Assembly (NCBI GenBank): GCA_011391735.1
Contig: JAABPY010000037.1
Location: forward strand, 1-37,146
Length of the DNA: 37,146 bases
Direction: 5' to 3'
Source: Sulfuricurvum sp.
GTDB taxonomy: Bacteria > Campylobacterota > Campylobacteria > Campylobacterales > Sulfurimonadaceae
Position 1 is the stretch's first letter. Every line of letters begins with the position of its first letter. Shown one piece after another: positions 11,845-37,057 of the stretch. The notes beneath the pieces are model-generated. The model saw only the letters and a list, made by a program, of their open reading frames with translations. It made no database searches and was not told the origin of the DNA. The position numbers were made by a program, and so were the translations under genes.

Positions 11845-12774
11845 ATGGGTGCAAAAAATTCTATGCTCAAAGATGAAGTGGTTGAAGTTATGAATATTGA
11901 CGAGATCGCACATGATGATCGGCGTAAAACGGCAGAAGAGAATGCGCTAGAGCGGCGGAAAAATGCCGAAAAAGAGGAGCGTGTCCCTGTTTGGATCAAG
12001 AAATCGGTATTAGAGTATGAAAAAGAGCTCAAAGAACTTCAAATTGAGTTATTAAAACTTCAAAATCACGTCAAAGATCAAGGTTTAAAAGTACTAATGA
12101 TTTTTGAAGGGCGTGATGCTGCGGGTAAGGGGGGGACGATTAAGCGGATGACGGAGCATCTCAACCCACGGGGTGCTCGTATCGTTGCCCTTGATAAACC
12201 CTCGGATATTGAAAAAACACAATGGTATTTTCAGCGCTACGCCAACCACCTTCCTGCTGCTGGCGAAATCGTTTTTTTTGATCGCAGTTGGTATAACCGT
12301 GGTGGTGTTGAACCGGTAATGGGGTTTTGTACAGACGAACAGCATAAAGAATTTTTGGATCATGTAGGTGAGTTTGAAAAAATGTTGGTTCGATCTGGGA
12401 TAATTCTTTTTAAATTTTATTTCTCTGTCTCTAAAAAAATACAAGCAGAACGGTTCAAAGGGAGAAAAACAGATCCACTAAAACAGTTCAAACTCTCTCC
12501 TGTGGACGAATCATCTCAAGATTTATGGGAAAAATATACGACGGTAAAGCTCTCGATGCTCAAAGCCTCTCATACAGGGACGGCTCCATGGATTATTATC
12601 CGTTCGGACAATAAGAAAAAAGCTCGTATCAACTGTATCAAACATGTTTTATCAACGGTTCAATATCCTACTAAAAGTAAACTTGATCTTAAAACATCCA
12701 AAAAAATTCTGATTTGGGGTGATGAAGAGATTATGCTTATGGAAACAAAAACAGACAGTCATGCTCGGGCTTAA
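11845..12774 (+). CDS. ppk2: Polyphosphate kinase 2 (PPK2 family, class I type)
   Basis: 309 residues from the ATG at 11845. A charged N-terminal helix region (about 1-70) precedes the P-loop kinase core: Walker A GRDAAGKGGTIKR, then LNPRGARIVALDKPS, QRYANHLPAAGEIVFFDRSWYNR (Walker B and R), and the lid ERFKGRKTDPLKQFKLSPVD. PPK2 transfers phosphate between polyphosphate and nucleoside di- or monophosphates; the length and single kinase domain suit class I (NDP phosphorylation), but class cannot be proved by eye. The 3' end overlaps the SulP gene by 14 bases. Confidence 0.93.
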   Translation: MGAKNSMLKDEVVEVMNIDEIAHDDRRKTAEENALERRKNAEKEERVPVWIKKSVLEYEKELKELQIELLKLQNHVKDQGLKVLMIFEGRDAAGKGGTIKRMTEHLNPRGARIVALDKPSDIEKTQWYFQRYANHLPAAGEIVFFDRSWYNRGGVEPVMGFCTDEQHKEFLDHVGEFEKMLVRSGIILFKFYFSVSKKIQAERFKGRKTDPLKQFKLSPVDESSQDLWEKYTTVKLSMLKASHTGTAPWIIIRSDNKKKARINCIKHVLSTVQYPTKSKLDLKTSKKILIWGDEEIMLMETKTDSHARA

Positions 12775-14962
12775 ATCTCAAAATATCCTTGCCGATTTTT
12801 GGGGGGGGACGGCTGCTATGTTGGTGGCACTTCCTTCTGCTATTGCTTTTGGGGTAACGATTTATGCGACGATTGGGGGGCATTATGGGGCGTATGGAGC
12901 AATCGCAGGTATCTTGGGCGTTGCGACGATTGGGATTATCGCTTCTGCTTTAGGGGGGACAAACCGTCTTATTTCAGCACCCAGTGCCCCTGCCGTAGCG
13001 GTACTTTCTGCCTTTGCCCTTACGTGTGTTTCCCAAGATCTTGGAGCGGATCTTATCTTTGTAATGTTGATGATTGTCGCATTATTAGCGGGTATTTTTC
13101 AATTGCTGTTTGGTTTTGTTGGATTGGGGAGACTGATCAAATATATGCCGTTTCCTGTTGTAAGTGGGTACCTTAGTGGGGTAGGTCTCTATATTTTTGC
13201 ATCTCAAACACCTAAGTTTTTAGGGCTCCCTTTGGGTGCCCATTTTTGGGAATCGCTGCATGCTTACACCTCTTGGCAATGGGAGAGTATTGTTATTGGT
13301 TTGATGACGATGGTAACTATGGTGTATGCAAATAAGTTTTTCAGTGCTATCCCTGCCGTTGTTGTCGCTTTGATAGCGGGGAGTGGAGTATACGGGATAT
13401 TGGGGATGGTCGATTCTTCATTATTTATCCCTAATAATTCGTTAGTTATCGGTGATCTTAGAGGTTCTGGAGGGGTGGATTTTATCCAAATGTTTGTAGG
13501 GCGTTTTGAAATACTAAAACATTTTACCCTTGATGATATAAGGTTCCTTTTTTTTCCTGCATTGACGTTGGCAGTGCTTCTTTCGATAGATACCCTCAAA
13601 ACGTGTGTGATACTTGATTCAATGACCCACTCTTTTCACGATTCTAATAAAGAATTGATTGCGCAAGGTTCTGCTAATATCGTCTCCTCCTTGATCGGGG
13701 GGACGGCGGGATCGGGGTCGATGGGACCTACGATGGTTAATCTCTCCAGTGGTGCGCAAACCTCTTTATCAGGGGTTATCGAAGGGGGGATGGCAATTGT
13801 TGCATTTGTTGTGTTAGGGACATTTATCGGATGGATTCCTGTTGCAGCATTGGCGGGTATTTTGATGGTCATTGGATTGAGAATGATTGATCGACACAGT
13901 CTGAAATTACTCAAAACTTCCAAAACGGCTTTCGATTTTTTGATTATTGTCATTGTTGCGATAACGGCACTCACCGTAAGCCTCATTGCAGCAGCTGGAG
14001 TTGGTTTACTTTTGGCGATTGTTTTATATATTGTGCAACAAATTGGTGCATCGGTCGTATACCGTCAGTTTGATGGGACGGAGGCAAAAAGTAAAATTAT
14101 CCGATCCAACGATGAGGAGTCACTCTTACGAGAGAGAGGGGGTGAGTATTCGCTCTACGAGTTGCATGGAAGTTTATTTTTTGGAACCGCCAATCAGCTG
14201 TATACAATGCTTCAACAAGATTTACAATATAAAAAATACATTATATTGGATATGAAACGGGTACAAACCGTTGATCTAACAGCGGCTCATATTCTTCTCC
14301 AAATCAAAGATATTCTTCATGATCACAATGGGTATTTAATTCTCTCTCGTTTACCCCATAAACTCCCTAGTGGTGATGATATGGAAAATTATTTCAATCA
14401 CGTAGGACTTCTAAAACATCTTAGCCCCATCAAAGTTTTTGATGCTATTGACGATGCTATTGAGTGGGTTGAGGATAAGATTTTATATGAAAATGTTCTT
14501 GAACAGCAGCAAGAAAGAGTGCTAGAATTGAATGATTTTGATCTCTTTAAGGGGCGAAAATTGGATACGTTAGCGGAGATAGAGACCCTTTTAGAACTTA
14601 AATCGTTTAAAAAAGGGGAAGTGATTTATTCACAAGGGGATTCAACTGGGGAAATATTTTTGATTCGGCGGGGTTTAGTACGGCTGATGCTCCCTTATAA
14701 TGCGCAAAAGAATGTTCACCTAAGTACATTGACGCAAGGGAGTTTTTTTGGAGAGTTTTCATTTCTGGAGGGGAGTCCCCATTACACCGATACCATTGCT
14801 GCTAGTGATACTGATCTTTACATGATTTCTCGGGATTCGTTTGACCGCTTTTCAGAACATCATAAAAAAGCCTCACTGCACTTTATGCAAAGTCTCGCTA
14901 CTGTCCTCGCCCAAAGGCTCAAAGTAACACGAACAGAATTGGCAGAAGAGTATGATGTATGA
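12761..14962 (+). CDS. SulP-family anion transporter with STAS and cyclic-nucleotide-fold domains
   Basis: 733 residues from the ATG at 12761 (MLGLKSQNILADFWGG); the track start at 12719 is possible but lies deep in ppk2. Transmembrane SulP domain about 1-420 with AMLVALPSAIAFG, AIAGILGVATIG and SAPSAPAVAVLSAF; STAS domain about 470-575 (LHGSLFFGTANQLY, YIILDMKRVQTVDLTAAHIL); C-terminal cNMP-binding fold about 610-725 (FKKGEVIYSQGDSTGEIFLIRRG, FGEFSFLEG, then the long C helix). SulP proteins carry sulfate, bicarbonate or dicarboxylates; substrate here unknown. In the phosphate-binding cassette the Arg of CRP (GExxxxxxxxxRS) is replaced (SPHYTDTIAA), so canonical cAMP binding is doubtful. The CDS has an 8-G run near codon 15. 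Confidence 0.93.
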   Translation: MLGLKSQNILADFWGGTAAMLVALPSAIAFGVTIYATIGGHYGAYGAIAGILGVATIGIIASALGGTNRLISAPSAPAVAVLSAFALTCVSQDLGADLIFVMLMIVALLAGIFQLLFGFVGLGRLIKYMPFPVVSGYLSGVGLYIFASQTPKFLGLPLGAHFWESLHAYTSWQWESIVIGLMTMVTMVYANKFFSAIPAVVVALIAGSGVYGILGMVDSSLFIPNNSLVIGDLRGSGGVDFIQMFVGRFEILKHFTLDDIRFLFFPALTLAVLLSIDTLKTCVILDSMTHSFHDSNKELIAQGSANIVSSLIGGTAGSGSMGPTMVNLSSGAQTSLSGVIEGGMAIVAFVVLGTFIGWIPVAALAGILMVIGLRMIDRHSLKLLKTSKTAFDFLIIVIVAITALTVSLIAAAGVGLLLAIVLYIVQQIGASVVYRQFDGTEAKSKIIRSNDEESLLRERGGEYSLYELHGSLFFGTANQLYTMLQQDLQYKKYIILDMKRVQTVDLTAAHILLQIKDILHDHNGYLILSRLPHKLPSGDDMENYFNHVGLLKHLSPIKVFDAIDDAIEWVEDKILYENVLEQQQERVLELNDFDLFKGRKLDTLAEIETLLELKSFKKGEVIYSQGDSTGEIFLIRRGLVRLMLPYNAQKNVHLSTLTQGSFFGEFSFLEGSPHYTDTIAASDTDLYMISRDSFDRFSEHHKKASLHFMQSLATVLAQRLKVTRTELAEEYDV
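12801..12808 (+). repeat. G8 homopolymer in SulP 5' coding region
   Basis: Eight consecutive G, encoding Trp-Gly-Gly about 14 codons into the transporter gene. In Campylobacter and Helicobacter, G tracts of this length or more can slip; the frame is intact here. Confidence 0.85.
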
Positions 14963-30073: not shown

Positions 30074-30477
30074 TAAGATTCCTTGTTTCGTGGTGTAAAA
30101 TTGAGGCAGACAGAGTTGATACAATAGCGTAATCCTGTTGTTTGTGGTCCATCGGGAAAAACATGTCCTAGGTGGGCATCGCACGTAGCGCACACCACTT
30201 CAACACGAACCATTCCATGACTACTGTCACGATTTTCGATGAGTGCTTCAGAGGTGATAGGGGCATCGTAGCTTGGCCATCCTGATCCTGAGTCGTATTT
30301 GTTGCGTGAATCAAAAAGGGGTTCATTGCAACAAATGCACGTGTAGATGCCATCTCCTTTAAAAGAGGCGTATTCACCACTAAAAGCTCTTTCGGTTCCA
30401 TGGTGACGTGCTACGTCATACGCTTGCGGTGAAAGCTGATTTCGCCACTCTTCGTCCGTTTTAACGATTTTTATCAT
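30073..30477 (-). CDS. msrB: Peptide-methionine (R)-S-oxide reductase MsrB
   Basis: 134 residues, no signal peptide, so cytoplasmic. Zinc Cys pairs CICC and CATC, the core [37 protein letters not shown] where the Cys of RYCIN is catalytic. A second Cys follows three residues later (NSVCL); the usual residue there is Ser. Repairs oxidised Met(R) residues. Its start overlaps the stop of the SF1-like gene and its stop overlaps the ppi start, both TAATG. Confidence 0.95.
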
Positions 30478-31940
30478 TATGCCTCTCCTCTTTTTGGGTG
30501 AATTATATCGGAAATTAGTGTAACGCTCTCTGACGCACGGCTTAATGCAAGGGTGTAAAGCGGATCATCGGGATTTAAATTAATAAGAAAACAATGTTGA
30601 GCTTCAACTGCATTAATAAACTGTGGTGTAGAGAGGGTGATGGAATTCAAATTTTTATGCTGTAAACTAAAATCATTCGTGAGTATTTGAGCATTTAGAT
30701 GAAGATGGTTGTCGATAGACTCTTTGAAATCTGAAATTAAACATTCATCACAGAGGATGATAAGGATGGAATACTCTGTTTCCCATAGATTTTCGAACTT
30801 TTTTAATGATGTGAAGAGAGTGGGAAGAATCTCTTCTTGAAGGGGACAATAAAGATGGGTAATATGAGGAGAACGATAGCAATTTTGGAATTGAAATTCA
30901 GTGCCTTTATAAAGTAAGGTTGTGCTGCTAATGAATAGGGGTCGATCTCCTTGGTATGTGTAGATTGATGTGAGTGTATCGGTATTAAAAAGATGGGCAT
31001 CATCACATACGATAATGGATGATTCACGAAATATGCGAAGCGTTTCGATAGAGTTTTTGTGCAATGTTAGAGGTAAAAAGTGAATATTTGATAGATTTAG
31101 CGTAATAACAGAGAACTCTACAATCCGAACGATCTCTTCACGAAATATTTCTGCACTAAGGAGAGTTGGCGTTATAACTAGTACTTTGGAGTGTGGATGT
31201 TGAAGCAGTATATCAATGATTTTACGAATTAATACAGTAGTTTTACCACTTCCATATTCGCCATGTAGATGTATTGAAGCAGTAGTAAGGGGGGTATCTA
31301 AAAAAGTTTGTTGCTCTTGCGAAAGAAAAGCACCAAAAGGGTCTTGTGTAGTTGGCAAAAGAAGGGTGTGTGCCATCAGTGAACCTAGTACTTTGAGTGT
31401 AGAATGCGGTTGGCTTTGATAGGTTCCAATCGAAGCCAACTTGGTTTGGATTGTCTGAATGGTATCACTGTTGAAGATAACTCTATTTTTAGGTAAAAAT
31501 TCATGAAAAGAGTAATTGAGAGTGTCAAACTCAGATTCACTGAGATTTTCCATCCAAACAAAACGTTCAATAGGGGTAAAATTGAAGGATAAAACATCTT
31601 CAAGTTTTTGCTGGATCACCCCTTCGGTAGAGTTGAAGCGTGTTGTTGATTTTTTTGTTCCACCTTTACGAAACCGTTCTATTTTCGCATCGTGAAGTTC
31701 ATTTATTTTCCAAGAAATTTTTTCTCCTACGTAAAGTCCATAATGGGGCAAAAAGATAACGATGTCCAATAACGAGCTTTGATCACGATAGAAGAGGGTG
31801 AAATTTTCTAAAAATAGGCCATTAGATTTAAGTGTAGCATTTTTTAATGTCTCGGGTGACTTTTTAACTTTTTGGGTAGATGTTTTGGTTTTTGAAAGAG
31901 ATTTAGAGAAGTAAAAACGTGATAAGAATGAAAAAAACAC
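30477..31940 (-). CDS. Compact, degenerate SF1-helicase-like ATPase with NERD-like N-terminus
   Basis: 487 residues from a GTG (31938-31940) with AAGG six bases before. About 55-80 resembles a NERD strand ([19 protein letters not shown]) but lacks the proper E-x-K. From about 205 an SF1A order is visible: Q-motif [12 protein letters not shown], Walker [12 protein letters not shown], motif Ia [12 protein letters not shown], motif [11 protein letters not shown] (DEAQ expected), a motif III-like [10 protein letters not shown], motif IV CYRSPHI, a weak motif V ([13 protein letters not shown] for KGLE) and motif [15 protein letters not shown]. It is much shorter than UvrD/PcrA (over 650), so 1B/2B subdomains are missing. 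Function unknown; could bind nucleic acid or act as an ATP switch. Coupled to msrB. Confidence 0.72.
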
Positions 31941-32048: not shown

Positions 32049-32333
32049 TTATTCTACGCCTGCAACACTGTCTTTAAGACTTTTGCCTGGTTTGAATTTT
32101 GGAACCATTTTATCTTCCGTTGTATACGTTTTATTAGTCCCCGGTACTGTGCCACTTTTACCTTTTTGCAATGTTGCAGCAAAGTTACCAAAACCTACTA
32201 ATGAGACCTCTTTTTTAGCAACAAGAGCCGCTGTAACAGCTTCTGTAAACGCTTTAATTGCTGTTTCAGCCTCTATTTTAGTTTTGTAACTACCACTTTT
32301 TTGTACCAATTCAACGAATTGTGCTTTATTCAT
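32049..32333 (-). CDS. hup: HU-family DNA-binding protein
   Basis: 94 residues. Begins MNKAQFVELVQKSG, continues with the helical dimerisation part and VSLVGFGNFAATL, then the arm region (KGKSGTVPGTNKTYTTEDKMVPKFKPGKSLKDSV). The GFGNF and PxFKPGK marks are those of HU/IHF; the arm lacks the usual RNP triplet (GTVPGTNKTY), so DNA bending may differ. Shine-Dalgarno AAGGGA. Monocistronic with its own terminator; promoter in the 118-base upstream gap (TATTAT at 32411-32416 or TATTAA at 32375-32380). Confidence 0.95.
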   Translation of the reverse strand: MNKAQFVELVQKSGSYKTKIEAETAIKAFTEAVTAALVAKKEVSLVGFGNFAATLQKGKSGTVPGTNKTYTTEDKMVPKFKPGKSLKDSVAGVE

Positions 32334-32420
32334 ATATGTCCCTTGGGTAAAGATCTGTTAAACTCGTTCATACTTTAATATCTCTTGGCTTAAATTTTTC
32401 TTGTTTTTACATAATATTGA

Positions 32421-32439
32421 CTAAAAACCCTATTTTTAG
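32421..32439 (-). terminator. Candidate terminator after the HTH/coiled-coil gene
   Basis: CTAAAAA - TAGGG - TTTTTAG on the minus strand, 7-bp all-AT stem except one C-G pair, 13 bases after the stop. The T-rich right arm could serve as the U tract. Weak. Confidence 0.4.
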
Positions 32440-32451
32440 AGCTTTTTATCC

Positions 32452-33105
32452 CTATAAAAGATCCGTATAGTCGTATTTTGAGAGATCAACATAGAACTCC
32501 CCCTCTTTTTGAATGATACGAATATCGCTTCCATAGGCTTGCGAAAAGCGATTTCGGATGATTTTACGCTCTTCGCTTCCTACTCCTATAAATTTAAGAT
32601 AACGTTTGAGTTCAATCACACCATTAGAGACAAGAGGAATAGGATTTTGAGGAGCAGTGGCTACAACATCGTGTACTGTATTGTCGTTGCGCAAGAGGAT
32701 GAGCTTGGTGCTTAAGACCTCTAAAACACTTTTGAGTTGCTCATCCTTGGCGGTGTAAATCTCTTCGATACGGTTGCGATCGGCAATAAGCATTTGTTCT
32801 TTGTCGTGAATGAGCGAATCAATTTTTGCTTCGAGCTCTTTAATTTTGAGCTTGAGATGGTGGTTCTCTTTTTGATAGAGGGAGATAACCATCCCTATAT
32901 TTGTTTTTACGGGAGGTGGTGGTGTAGAACCAGTTTTTTCTAAATTTTCCAATTTCAAATTTGTATTCATTGTTTTAGTGGGGACAATAATATAGGCAAT
33001 TCCCCCTTCGACGATATAATCAAGCTTTTTGGTACGAATTTTATTATGGATCATCTCTTTAGACATTTTAAACGTTTTGGCATACTCTTCAATACTATAA
33101 CGCAT
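32452..33105 (-). CDS. HTH-like N-terminus plus coiled coil, possible DUF3972 protein
   Basis: 217 residues from the ATG at 33105, backed by AAAGGAGAG just upstream; the 28 extra residues of the track read through the cyclase gene. Residues 1-45 look like a helix-turn-helix/MerR-style head (YSIEEYAKTFKMSKEMIHNKIRTKKLDYI). About 90-150 is a coiled coil (HHLKLKIKELEAKIDSLI, IEEIYTAKDEQLKSVLEVL). The C-terminal 50 residues (LKRYLKFIGVGSEERKIIRNRF, GSDIRIIQKEGEFYVDL) form a separate small domain. DUF3972 is a guess from pattern. Starts 11 bases inside the 3' end of the cyclase-like gene, so coupled to it. Confidence 0.75.
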   Translation of the reverse strand: MRYSIEEYAKTFKMSKEMIHNKIRTKKLDYIVEGGIAYIIVPTKTMNTNLKLENLEKTGSTPPPPVKTNIGMVISLYQKENHHLKLKIKELEAKIDSLIHDKEQMLIADRNRIEEIYTAKDEQLKSVLEVLSTKLILLRNDNTVHDVVATAPQNPIPLVSNGVIELKRYLKFIGVGSEERKIIRNRFSQAYGSDIRIIQKEGEFYVDLSKYDYTDLL

Positions 33106-33769
33106 ACTCTCTCCTTTTGGCTTCAAGCAGCCATTCTGCTTTTGGGGGGGGAATAATTCCCCCCTTACGCATCCAAATAAGATAGCCATGATGCTCTATA
33201 TTGTGTTTGTCGGCAAAGGTATGGCGTGAACTGTATTTGAATTCACACTCTTTTAAGAGCTGCGCAAAATCGGGATGATGGTTTAAGAAGCCTTGGAGGG
33301 ATTCAAAAGCGGTATCGGAGATAAAGACCGTACTCACCACAAGATTTTTGATTTCAACGTAGCGAGCACACTCATTGAGTCCATCTCCTACAAAATTGTC
33401 ATGTCCTAAAATATCTTCAAATTTATAAATCATCCCAGTATGGACAGCAACGCGTATGCCTTGGAAATAGGGGTACTCTCTGGCAATATAATCAGAAAAA
33501 TGGATAAACGATAGCCCAAGCAGAGGACCAAATCCTTTGAGGCTTGGGTGTAAAATACAGTAAAAACCATCCCCTGTAGGGATAATCCCTTGGAGCATTT
33601 TTTCCAGAGGAATCCCCGAATTTTGAAGCATCTTATGGATCATCTTCTTGTAGCTTTGAGAAAGATAGGTGATGAGTTCAAGCTGATGAGGCATGCTAAG
33701 ACGTGAAAAATCAATAATATCAACCAATACAATATCAGCTTCTATGGGTTTTATCTGCATAATGCTCAC
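33095..33769 (-). CDS. Class III nucleotidyl cyclase-like protein
   Basis: 224 residues. GTG at 33769 or ATG at 33760; both fit. Cyclase-fold order: VLVDIIDFSRLS (metal Asp of DIxxFS), IIPTGDGFYCIL (second metal Asp, GDG), GIRVAVHTGM, and NFVGDGLNECARY (the N-x-x-x-R catalytic pair of VNxxAR). The Lys that usually selects ATP before the GD is replaced (IIPTGD). No TM or sensor domain. So the active-site metals and Asn/Arg seem kept while the purine contact is not; it may make another nucleotide, or act as a binding module. Followed by the HTH/coiled-coil gene. Confidence 0.72.
   Translation of the reverse strand: MSIMQIKPIEADIVLVDIIDFSRLSMPHQLELITYLSQSYKKMIHKMLQNSGIPLEKMLQGIIPTGDGFYCILHPSLKGFGPLLGLSFIHFSDYIAREYPYFQGIRVAVHTGMIYKFEDILGHDNFVGDGLNECARYVEIKNLVVSTVFISDTAFESLQGFLNHHPDFAQLLKECEFKYSSRHTFADKHNIEHHGYLIWMRKGGIIPPPKAEWLLEAKRREYAL
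33144..33151. repeat. G8/C8 homopolymer in the cyclase-like gene
   Basis: Eight G on the + strand, coding Ile-Pro-Pro-Pro on the minus strand. It forms one arm of the hairpin listed above. A one-base change would alter only the last 18 or so residues but could change coupling to the next gene. Confidence 0.85.
33144..33164 (-). promoter_or_regulatory. Strong GC hairpin with 8-base C run at the end of the cyclase-like gene
   Basis: Minus strand: GGGGGGAA - TTA - TTCCCCCC followed by two more C. An 8-bp stem with a three-base loop inside the last 25 codons of the cyclase-like gene, about 40 bases before the next start codon. No T-run, so not an ordinary terminator; may slow ribosomes or polymerase. 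Confidence 0.6.
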
Positions 33770-33899: not shown

Positions 33900-35351
33900 A
33901 TGACAAAACGGACAAAAATATTAGCAACAGTAGGTCCATCATCCCAAAGTGTAGAGATTCTTAGCGCAATGATTCGTGCTGGGGTTAATCTCTTTCGGTT
34001 GAATTTTTCGCACGGTACACACGATTATCATTTGGGTGTTCTCAATAATATCCGTCAAGCAATGGAAGAGACGGGTCAAATTGTAGGAATTTTGCAAGAT
34101 ATTAGTGGACCTAAAGTTCGTATTGATATGGTAGCTGAGGATTTTCATCTTCAAGGGGGAGATCGACTTGATTTTTACAAGCAGGAGAGGGTAGGGGAAC
34201 AGCTTCAGTCTCATCATTATACCTGCTCCCTTCATCCGAGTGAGATATTAGGGAAGCTCAAAATAGGGGATGCTATTTACCTTTGTGATGGGGCAATTGC
34301 GGCGAAAGTAGTGGCGCATGAAGAGCAGTATATTCAGGCAATTATCGAGAATAATGGGGTGTTAAGTTCCAAAAAAGGGGTGAATTTCCCCAATACCTCT
34401 CTTGGAATCGACGTTTTGACCCCCAAAGACAAAAAAGATATGGAGTGGGGGGTCGCTAATGGGGTTGATTTCATGGCAATCTCTTTTGTTCAAAGTGCTG
34501 CGGATATGATCCAAGCGCGTGAGATTATTATTGCTCACGGTGGGCGTGTGGAGCTCATTGCCAAAATTGAGAAATTTGATGCTGTTGAAAATATTGATGA
34601 AATACTCAAGCACTCCGATGGGATAATGGTCGCACGCGGGGATTTGGGGATTGAGATACCGTATCATGAAGTCCCAATGACCCAAAAAATGTTGATTCGA
34701 AAAGCCAATGAGGTCTCTAAACCCGTCATTACAGCCACCCAAATGCTCCTTTCAATGACCGAAAAAGAGACAGCGACACGGGCTGAAATTAGTGATGTGG
34801 CAAATGCCGTACTTGATGGTACCGATGCCGTGATGCTCTCTGAAGAGTCGGCGGTGGGACATAACCCTGTATTGGTTGTAGAGACGATGGTTAAGACGAT
34901 TCAGTCGATTGAAAAGATGTATCCCTTCGATAAATTTTCAGAATTCAAACACTATGATACAATGGATATTGTCAATGAATCAGCGGTACGTTTGGGAGAC
35001 GCTTTGCATGTACAGGCTATTATTGCGATGACTACCTCAGGGCAATCGGTCAAAAAACTTTCTCGATATCGCCCCGAAATGACCATCTATGCCGCAACGC
35101 ATAATGAACGTATTGCACGTACCTTAACTCTCGTATGGGGGGTAGCTCCTACTTTTCTAACGACAACACGAAACGTTGATGAAGCGCTTGAAGAGATTAT
35201 TGAGCAAGGATGTGAAAATGGTATTATTGATAAAACCCAAACCTATATTTTTACCGCAGGTGATCCTGTGGGAGTGCATGGAGCGACGAATTTAATTCGT
35301 ATTTTAGGTAAAAATGAACTTGATTTTTTTGGAAAAGGGGAAAAAGTTTGA
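33900..35351 (+). CDS. pyk: Pyruvate kinase
   Basis: 483 residues. RTKILATVGPSS start, then NFSHGTHDYH, DISGPKVRID, the B domain, IAKIEKFDAVENIDEI with the catalytic Lys, DGIMVARGDLGIEIP, KPVITATQMLLSM and TRAEISDVANAVLDGTDAVMLSEESAVG, C-terminal domain with SGQSVKKLSRYRPE. Converts PEP and ADP to pyruvate and ATP. The usual acidic residue in MLESM/MLDSM is Leu here. Good Shine-Dalgarno (AAAGGGAG). Monocistronic or followed by cmoA after 106 bases. Confidence 0.97.
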   Translation: MTKRTKILATVGPSSQSVEILSAMIRAGVNLFRLNFSHGTHDYHLGVLNNIRQAMEETGQIVGILQDISGPKVRIDMVAEDFHLQGGDRLDFYKQERVGEQLQSHHYTCSLHPSEILGKLKIGDAIYLCDGAIAAKVVAHEEQYIQAIIENNGVLSSKKGVNFPNTSLGIDVLTPKDKKDMEWGVANGVDFMAISFVQSAADMIQAREIIIAHGGRVELIAKIEKFDAVENIDEILKHSDGIMVARGDLGIEIPYHEVPMTQKMLIRKANEVSKPVITATQMLLSMTEKETATRAEISDVANAVLDGTDAVMLSEESAVGHNPVLVVETMVKTIQSIEKMYPFDKFSEFKHYDTMDIVNESAVRLGDALHVQAIIAMTTSGQSVKKLSRYRPEMTIYAATHNERIARTLTLVWGVAPTFLTTTRNVDEALEEIIEQGCENGIIDKTQTYIFTAGDPVGVHGATNLIRILGKNELDFFGKGEKV

Positions 35352-36517: not shown

Positions 36518-37057
36518 TTATGCCGCTGATACAAAACTCTCAATAGTGTCACCTTCGCGTTGCAATACGGTCACTCCATTGGCTAATGCCATTTCTTTTA
36601 GGTCATCATAGAGCGAAAAAGTAGCTAAGACGAGATGGTGATTATAATCTTTGTACATCGGAAAAAGCTTTTTGAAATTTTCATATTTTTTGGTCAATAG
36701 TTTGTCTAAATCGCCTTCGTGAGTTTTGTATTTGACTTTAATGATCGCAATATCTTTGCCATTTACCATAACAATATCGTATTCATCTTGAATTTTATTG
36801 GCATTTGCTGTCATATTTTTGTACACAATATCGTAATGAATTCCTGCTAAGGTTTGAGTTTGTGCTAGGGAGTTGTAAAAGAACTCTTCGGCAACAGAGC
36901 CTTGATTATTGGAGATATTCCCCAATGTAATACCTATGCGTTCTAGTTTTTCGTCGGTGCGTTTCATTTGGGCATTAGTTTCAGCTTGCTGTGCATCTAA
37001 TCTATCTGATTTGATAGCCAATCCTGCGACTAACTCTTTTAATTCTTGATCGGTCAT
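36518..37057 (-). CDS. PD-(D/E)XK-nuclease-like protein with coiled-coil N-terminus, catalytic Glu replaced
   Basis: 179 residues. Residues 5-50 form a coiled coil (DRLDAQQAETNAQMKRTDEKL), then NNQGSVAEEFFYNSLAQ, and a PD-(D/E)XK core: DEYDIVMVNGKDIAIIKVKYK, KKYENFKKLFPMYKDYNHHLVLATFSLYDD, and the end strand VTVLQREGD. This is the DUF3782-like group common in Campylobacterota and cyanobacteria. The motif should read IEVKYK; here it is IKVKYK (AAA in place of GAA/GAG), so the catalytic Glu is lost while D and the final Lys remain. Probably catalytically dead or recently mutated. Shine-Dalgarno GGTATCTTAA region; promoter at 37099-37104. Confidence 0.8.
   Translation of the reverse strand: MTDQELKELVAGLAIKSDRLDAQQAETNAQMKRTDEKLERIGITLGNISNNQGSVAEEFFYNSLAQTQTLAGIHYDIVYKNMTANANKIQDEYDIVMVNGKDIAIIKVKYKTHEGDLDKLLTKKYENFKKLFPMYKDYNHHLVLATFSLYDDLKEMALANGVTVLQREGDTIESFVSAA

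Follow-up and report, generated by a model that had tools for sequence, protein, structure and literature searches.

Do two overlapping genes near one end of this DNA form a small nucleotide signal and regulator pair, as the original prediction proposed? The window, by which we mean the whole stretch of 37,146 nucleotides that was analysed, is one contig of a metagenome-assembled genome of the Sulfuricurvum type. Both genes are intact open reading frames on the minus strand. The product of P1 (33095..33769) is a divergent protein that resembles class III nucleotidyl cyclases, recognised from its reading frame, a profile-profile match and its homologues. P2 (33105-32452) encodes 217 amino acids from an ATG start. 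Its predicted layout, based on an AF2 model and Foldseek, is a winged-HTH head, a long coiled coil and a small C-terminal beta-alpha-beta domain.

The stop of P1 and the start of P2 overlap by 11 bases, ATGCGTTATAG (33095..33105, minus strand), exactly as had been described. A Shine-Dalgarno-like AAGGAG precedes the P2 ATG at 33111..33116 on the same strand. It lies within the P1 coding sequence and probably serves P2. P1 has 224 amino acids when read from a GTG and 221 when read from a conserved ATG at 33760. The GTG start is doubtful and the ATG is favoured, because residue 4 is Met in 36 of 37 homologues. Residue numbers of P1 given here follow the GTG numbering.

Downstream of P2 is the gene of an HU-type DNA-binding protein (32049..32333, minus strand), and divergent from P1 is a pyruvate kinase gene (33900..35351, plus strand). 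Within the genus the P1-P2 locus stays between these two conserved neighbours. Two other genes in the window can be mentioned here. A UvrD/DEAD-like NTPase (30477-31940) evolves much faster than its surroundings, with 34-58% identity in the genus versus 64-97% for most neighbours. A small protein (36518-37057) has weak similarity to Card1-endonuclease/NERD at E=4.5e-4, which is below the cut-off.

P1 and the class III cyclases

The cyclase-type residues of P1 are D17, G66-D67-G68, H110-T111-G112 and G128-x3-N132-x3-R136. D17 is the first metal Asp (codon at 33719..33721) and D67, in the GDG, is the second (33569..33571). N132 and R136 are the transition-state pair (codons N132 to R136 at 33362..33376), all on the minus strand. 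The two metal Asp and the N/R pair were said to be kept in P1, and this holds for the whole family. The four residues are invariant across 66 P1 homologues, many of them only 41-60% identical to P1, so the motif residues are more than chance. There is also a family-specific DKH motif near the C-terminus.

Profile comparison points to the same superfamily. Against 26 PF00211 domains found in the order, hhalign gave the P1 family profile E-values from 5.5e-5 to 1.5e-6, while two unrelated alignments used as controls gave 0.5-0.8. The P1 profile also finds a divergent relative (L078, E=3e-13) that is itself above the PF00211 cut-off. The profile search foreseen in the original prediction worked for the P1 family (best E=1.5e-6) but not for P1 alone, which has no Pfam match, and P2 stayed below the PF13118 cut-off. 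Pfam, NCBIfam and PADLOC gave no useful match to the P1 protein of the window, and PDB sequence searches by P1 and by its profile found no relative. An AF2 model of P1 built from nine sequences has low confidence (pLDDT 41). When Foldseek was run with this low-confidence model the top 17 matches were all the class III adenylyl cyclase Ma1120, with a best E of 0.013, a TM of 0.26 and none significant. We treat this resemblance as a hint only. We argue from the profiles and motifs that P1 is a divergent member of the class III nucleotidyl cyclase superfamily.

Class III cyclases had been called rare in this phylum. That claim fails. Of 200 genomes from the order, 72 score above the PF00211 cut-off, and the source genome has another class III cyclase on a different contig from P1. 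The window also holds a SulP-type sulfate permease (12719-14962) that has a STAS domain and, at the C-terminus, a match to the cyclic-nucleotide-binding family PF00027 (E=9e-18). It is a candidate cyclic-nucleotide receptor in the same genome as P1. The divergent relative L078, a 384-aa protein from another family of the order, is encoded directly after a ThsB-type TIR gene (PF08937, E=1.3e-15; L098:10969-12719 in genome G096). These two genes are possibly a TIR-cyclase defence pair.

The base pocket is where P1 is most unusual. Adenylyl cyclases select their base with a Lys/Asp pair, and guanylyl cyclases have Glu at the Lys position (PMC4215837). The purine-selecting Lys was predicted to be missing from P1, and it is. 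I63 (codon at 33581..33583, minus strand) takes its place, and across the homologues the residue is always Ile (56/66) or Val (10/66). N125 (33395..33397, minus strand) is found in 66/66 and would lie, judging from the alignment, near the second base-selecting position, which is Asp in adenylyl cyclases. With Ile or Val at 63 and Asn at 125, the adenylyl-type Lys/Asp pair is absent from all 66 homologues, and the guanylyl-type Glu is not present at the Lys position either. The CTP cyclase EaPycC selects CTP with F100, R142 and Q144 (PMC11224242). This set is missing from P1, which has L15, I63 and T65 when the positions are placed by their spacing to the metal Asp. The residue sets that select UTP vary between clades (PMC11224242). 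As far as alignment can tell, the base pocket of P1 differs from those of the known adenylyl and guanylyl cyclases and of the CTP cyclase EaPycC, and it may differ from those of the known pyrimidine cyclases as a whole.

Because the base-selecting residues match no known cyclase, P1 may be catalytically silent. One can imagine a cyclase-homology module that works as an NTP and metal sensor, or as a dimerisation unit, and acts by contact with P2. The loss of the Lys/Asp pair in every homologue fits this scenario, and so does a P2 without a recognised receptor domain. However, none of the 66 homologues departs from the two metal Asp or from the Asn/Arg pair, and this goes beyond the needs of NTP binding alone. 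We consider a silent P1 rather unlikely.

P2 and the conserved operon

The AF2 model of P2 has a mean pLDDT of 72. It places the winged HTH at residues 1-42 and the coiled coil at 70-140, followed by the small C-terminal domain. The HTH-like head that had been predicted can now be made more specific. Residues 1-40, with a pLDDT of about 84, have the beta-alpha-alpha-beta-beta fold of a winged HTH. Foldseek matches the head to phage Xis and MerR-like BldC with probability 0.95-1.00 and rmsd 0.9-2.4. The E-values, for a domain of this short length, are weak (above 0.1). The model argues for a real winged HTH of the excisionase/MerR type.

The rest of P2 is less familiar. It matches PF13118 (DUF3972) at E=0.015 with 16.2 bits, which is under the gathering score of 26.2. 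A PDB sequence search by the P2 profile found no relative. Matches to LegC2/C7 and to leucine zippers were taken as noise because they fall inside the coiled coil. Nearly every genome of the genus has a second P2 copy elsewhere, about 31-38% identical, and this paralogue also matches PF13118 weakly (E=0.024). In the source genome the paralogue adjoins an HD-domain gene and an ORF that we take to be YajQ-like.

The original prediction depended on the two genes staying together, and they do. P1 is intact in 65 of the 121 genomes of the family. In 64 of those 65, P2 comes next in the same orientation, no more than 170 bases away, and in the lone exception (G429) P1 is near a contig end. P2 itself is found in 117/121 genomes, including most of those without flagellin. 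It occurs without P1 in 52/121, and it is kept where P1 was lost or broken (G295 and G480).

The operon is longer in most other genera. There P1 and P2 are followed by a FapA-like gene (about 555 aa) and then by HU, often with an 80-residue XRE-type HTH gene before HU. Most relatives have the XRE-type gene somewhere between P2 and HU (e.g. L034:6615-6860), and the window lacks it at 32334-32451. The FapA-like operon gene (L099) matches PF20250 (FapA_N) at E=1.5e-5, and its 24.9 bits are just under the cut-off of 27. Its paralogues within the profile family score above the PF03961 cut-off. We label the third gene a putative FapA-like flagellar assembly protein on the basis of this sub-cut-off match and these paralogues. 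It is absent from the locus in Sulfuricurvum, and its homologues in the source genome sit on other contigs. Two variants of P1 were also seen. At L091:7575-7937 (genome G466) P1 has an internal in-frame deletion with loss of GDG, HTG and the N/R pair, and P2 and the FapA-like gene are intact. At L041:6493-7491 (genome G056) a P1 homologue is extended at the C-terminus by about 120 fused residues that look like a coiled coil.

Could P2 bind the product of P1 and switch transcription? The overlapping genes, the strict adjacency and the winged HTH in P2 all speak for such a pair. The elements of the original prediction therefore stand: there is a cyclase relative, a winged-HTH protein and a conserved pair. 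What does not stand is that the pair is closed. P2 without P1 in 52 genomes is hard to square with a dedicated regulator, the Pfam search recognised no known cyclic-nucleotide-binding or other ligand-binding domain in P2, the operon extends to the FapA-like gene, and P1 tracks flagella. The role of a mere receptor for the P1 product does not fit P2, because P2 is commoner than P1 and survives without flagella. As an obligate receptor it was rejected or marked down on the same counts (117/121 vs 65/121). We find it doubtful that P2 is a switch of this kind.

Another scenario makes P2 the core of the locus. It would be a RacA-like organiser of the nucleoid or pole, and P1 would be an accessory recruited in flagellated lineages. 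The presence of P2 in nearly every genome and its retention without flagella are consistent with this. The combination of a winged HTH with a 70-residue coiled coil and the position of HU as the next gene in most genera are consistent with it too. However, the likeness to RacA is an analogy of architecture only. We think this scenario improbable.

A Pycsar-like anti-phage system, with P1 as pyrimidine cyclase and P2 as effector, is the least credible scenario and very improbable: the non-purine pocket and the divergent relative beside a ThsB-type TIR gene would suit it, but PADLOC on the window proteins gave no match, the chromosomal position is fixed through the genus, no P1 relative turned up in viral contigs, searched at protein and at profile level, or in plasmid and phage records, P2 has no recognised TIR, transmembrane or cNMP-binding effector domain, and P1 lacks the CTP-selecting residues of EaPycC (PMC11224242). 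A mobile origin of P1-P2 was likewise rejected or marked down.

The link to flagella

Intact P1 is restricted to flagellated genomes. Among the 121 genomes of the family it occurs in 65/100 that are flagellin-positive and in 0/21 that are flagellin-negative. The Fisher p=8e-9 is uncorrected and overstates the case because the genomes are related; stratified by genus, p=0.02. Presence of the FapA-like family also tracks flagellin, with 97/100 positive versus 2/21 negative genomes. G480 has no flagellin, and there P1 is a pseudogene and P2 is intact. In the window's own genus, G003 (99% complete) is without P1, P2 and flagellin. The genus has two more genomes that lack P1, G006 and G024; both are incomplete, and the region seems to be missing from them. 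It must be noted that in genus g23, 16 flagellated genomes are without intact P1, and therefore P1 is not essential for flagella. A distant P1 homologue (L040, genome G040) adjoins a flagellin/hook-family ORF, and the ORFs near it are presumably flaG and fliD. The second of the two distant homologues, L041, has beside it an ORF that looks to us like a sugar-nucleotide epimerase of the kind used in flagellin modification.

Our preferred reading starts from what was directly established, namely the superfamily of P1 by profile, the conservation of its residues, the conservation of the operon and the restriction to flagellated genomes. We tentatively propose that P1 is a flagellum-associated nucleotidyl cyclase, with P2 as scaffold or regulator and a FapA-like partner. 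P1 would be a soluble, single-domain class III enzyme, probably homodimeric. The ancestral operon would have been P1-P2-FapA-like with P1 as the first gene, and the third gene would have gone from the locus in Sulfuricurvum. P1 would cyclise an NTP to a cyclic mononucleotide, or at the very least bind a nucleotide, and its product may serve flagellar assembly or motility control. P2 would be a coiled-coil protein that binds DNA and is produced together with P1, and as scaffold or regulator it may contact P1 directly. The FapA-like protein would be the third partner in most other genera.

One can go further and suppose that P1 founds a flagellum-dedicated class III cyclase family in Sulfurimonadaceae-type bacteria. 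An unusual-base cyclic mononucleotide would then act on the P2/FapA-like machinery, separate from c-di-GMP and cAMP-CRP. This bolder version is speculative, and we think it unlikely to hold in full. If P1 is active, a cyclic-nucleotide enzyme would be tied to flagella in a phylum where accounts of flagellar control usually do without one. Its unusual pocket would in that case be one more instance in which class III cyclases have changed substrate in a setting other than phage defence. The operon also offers a setting for the DUF3972-like P2 proteins and the FapA-like proteins, two families that are little understood.

Comparison with known systems

P1 shares with the class III adenylyl/guanylyl cyclases (PF00211) the two metal Asp, GDG, (H/N)TG and G-x3-N-x3-R, along with the profile match at E=1.5e-6. 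It differs from them in having Ile/Val and Asn for Lys/Asp, in its DKH motif and in not being recognised by Pfam. With the PycC of Pycsar it has in common a single domain, the class III catalytic motifs and a non-purine pocket (PMC11224242). Unlike PycC, P1 has no effector gene and is vertically inherited. Neither a PycTM nor a PycTIR effector was found beside P1, and P2 has no such domain. P2 is weakly matched by the DUF3972 proteins of Campylobacterota (PF13118), which also have an HTH head and then a coiled coil. It differs in scoring below the curated cut-off, in its C-terminal domain beyond the matched part and in its operon with P1. The operon FapA-like gene differs from FapA / DUF342 (PF03961, PF20250) in a score just under the cut-off and in not being at the Sulfuricurvum locus. 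What joins it to them is a family that tracks flagellin and occupies the third position in the operon of other genera.
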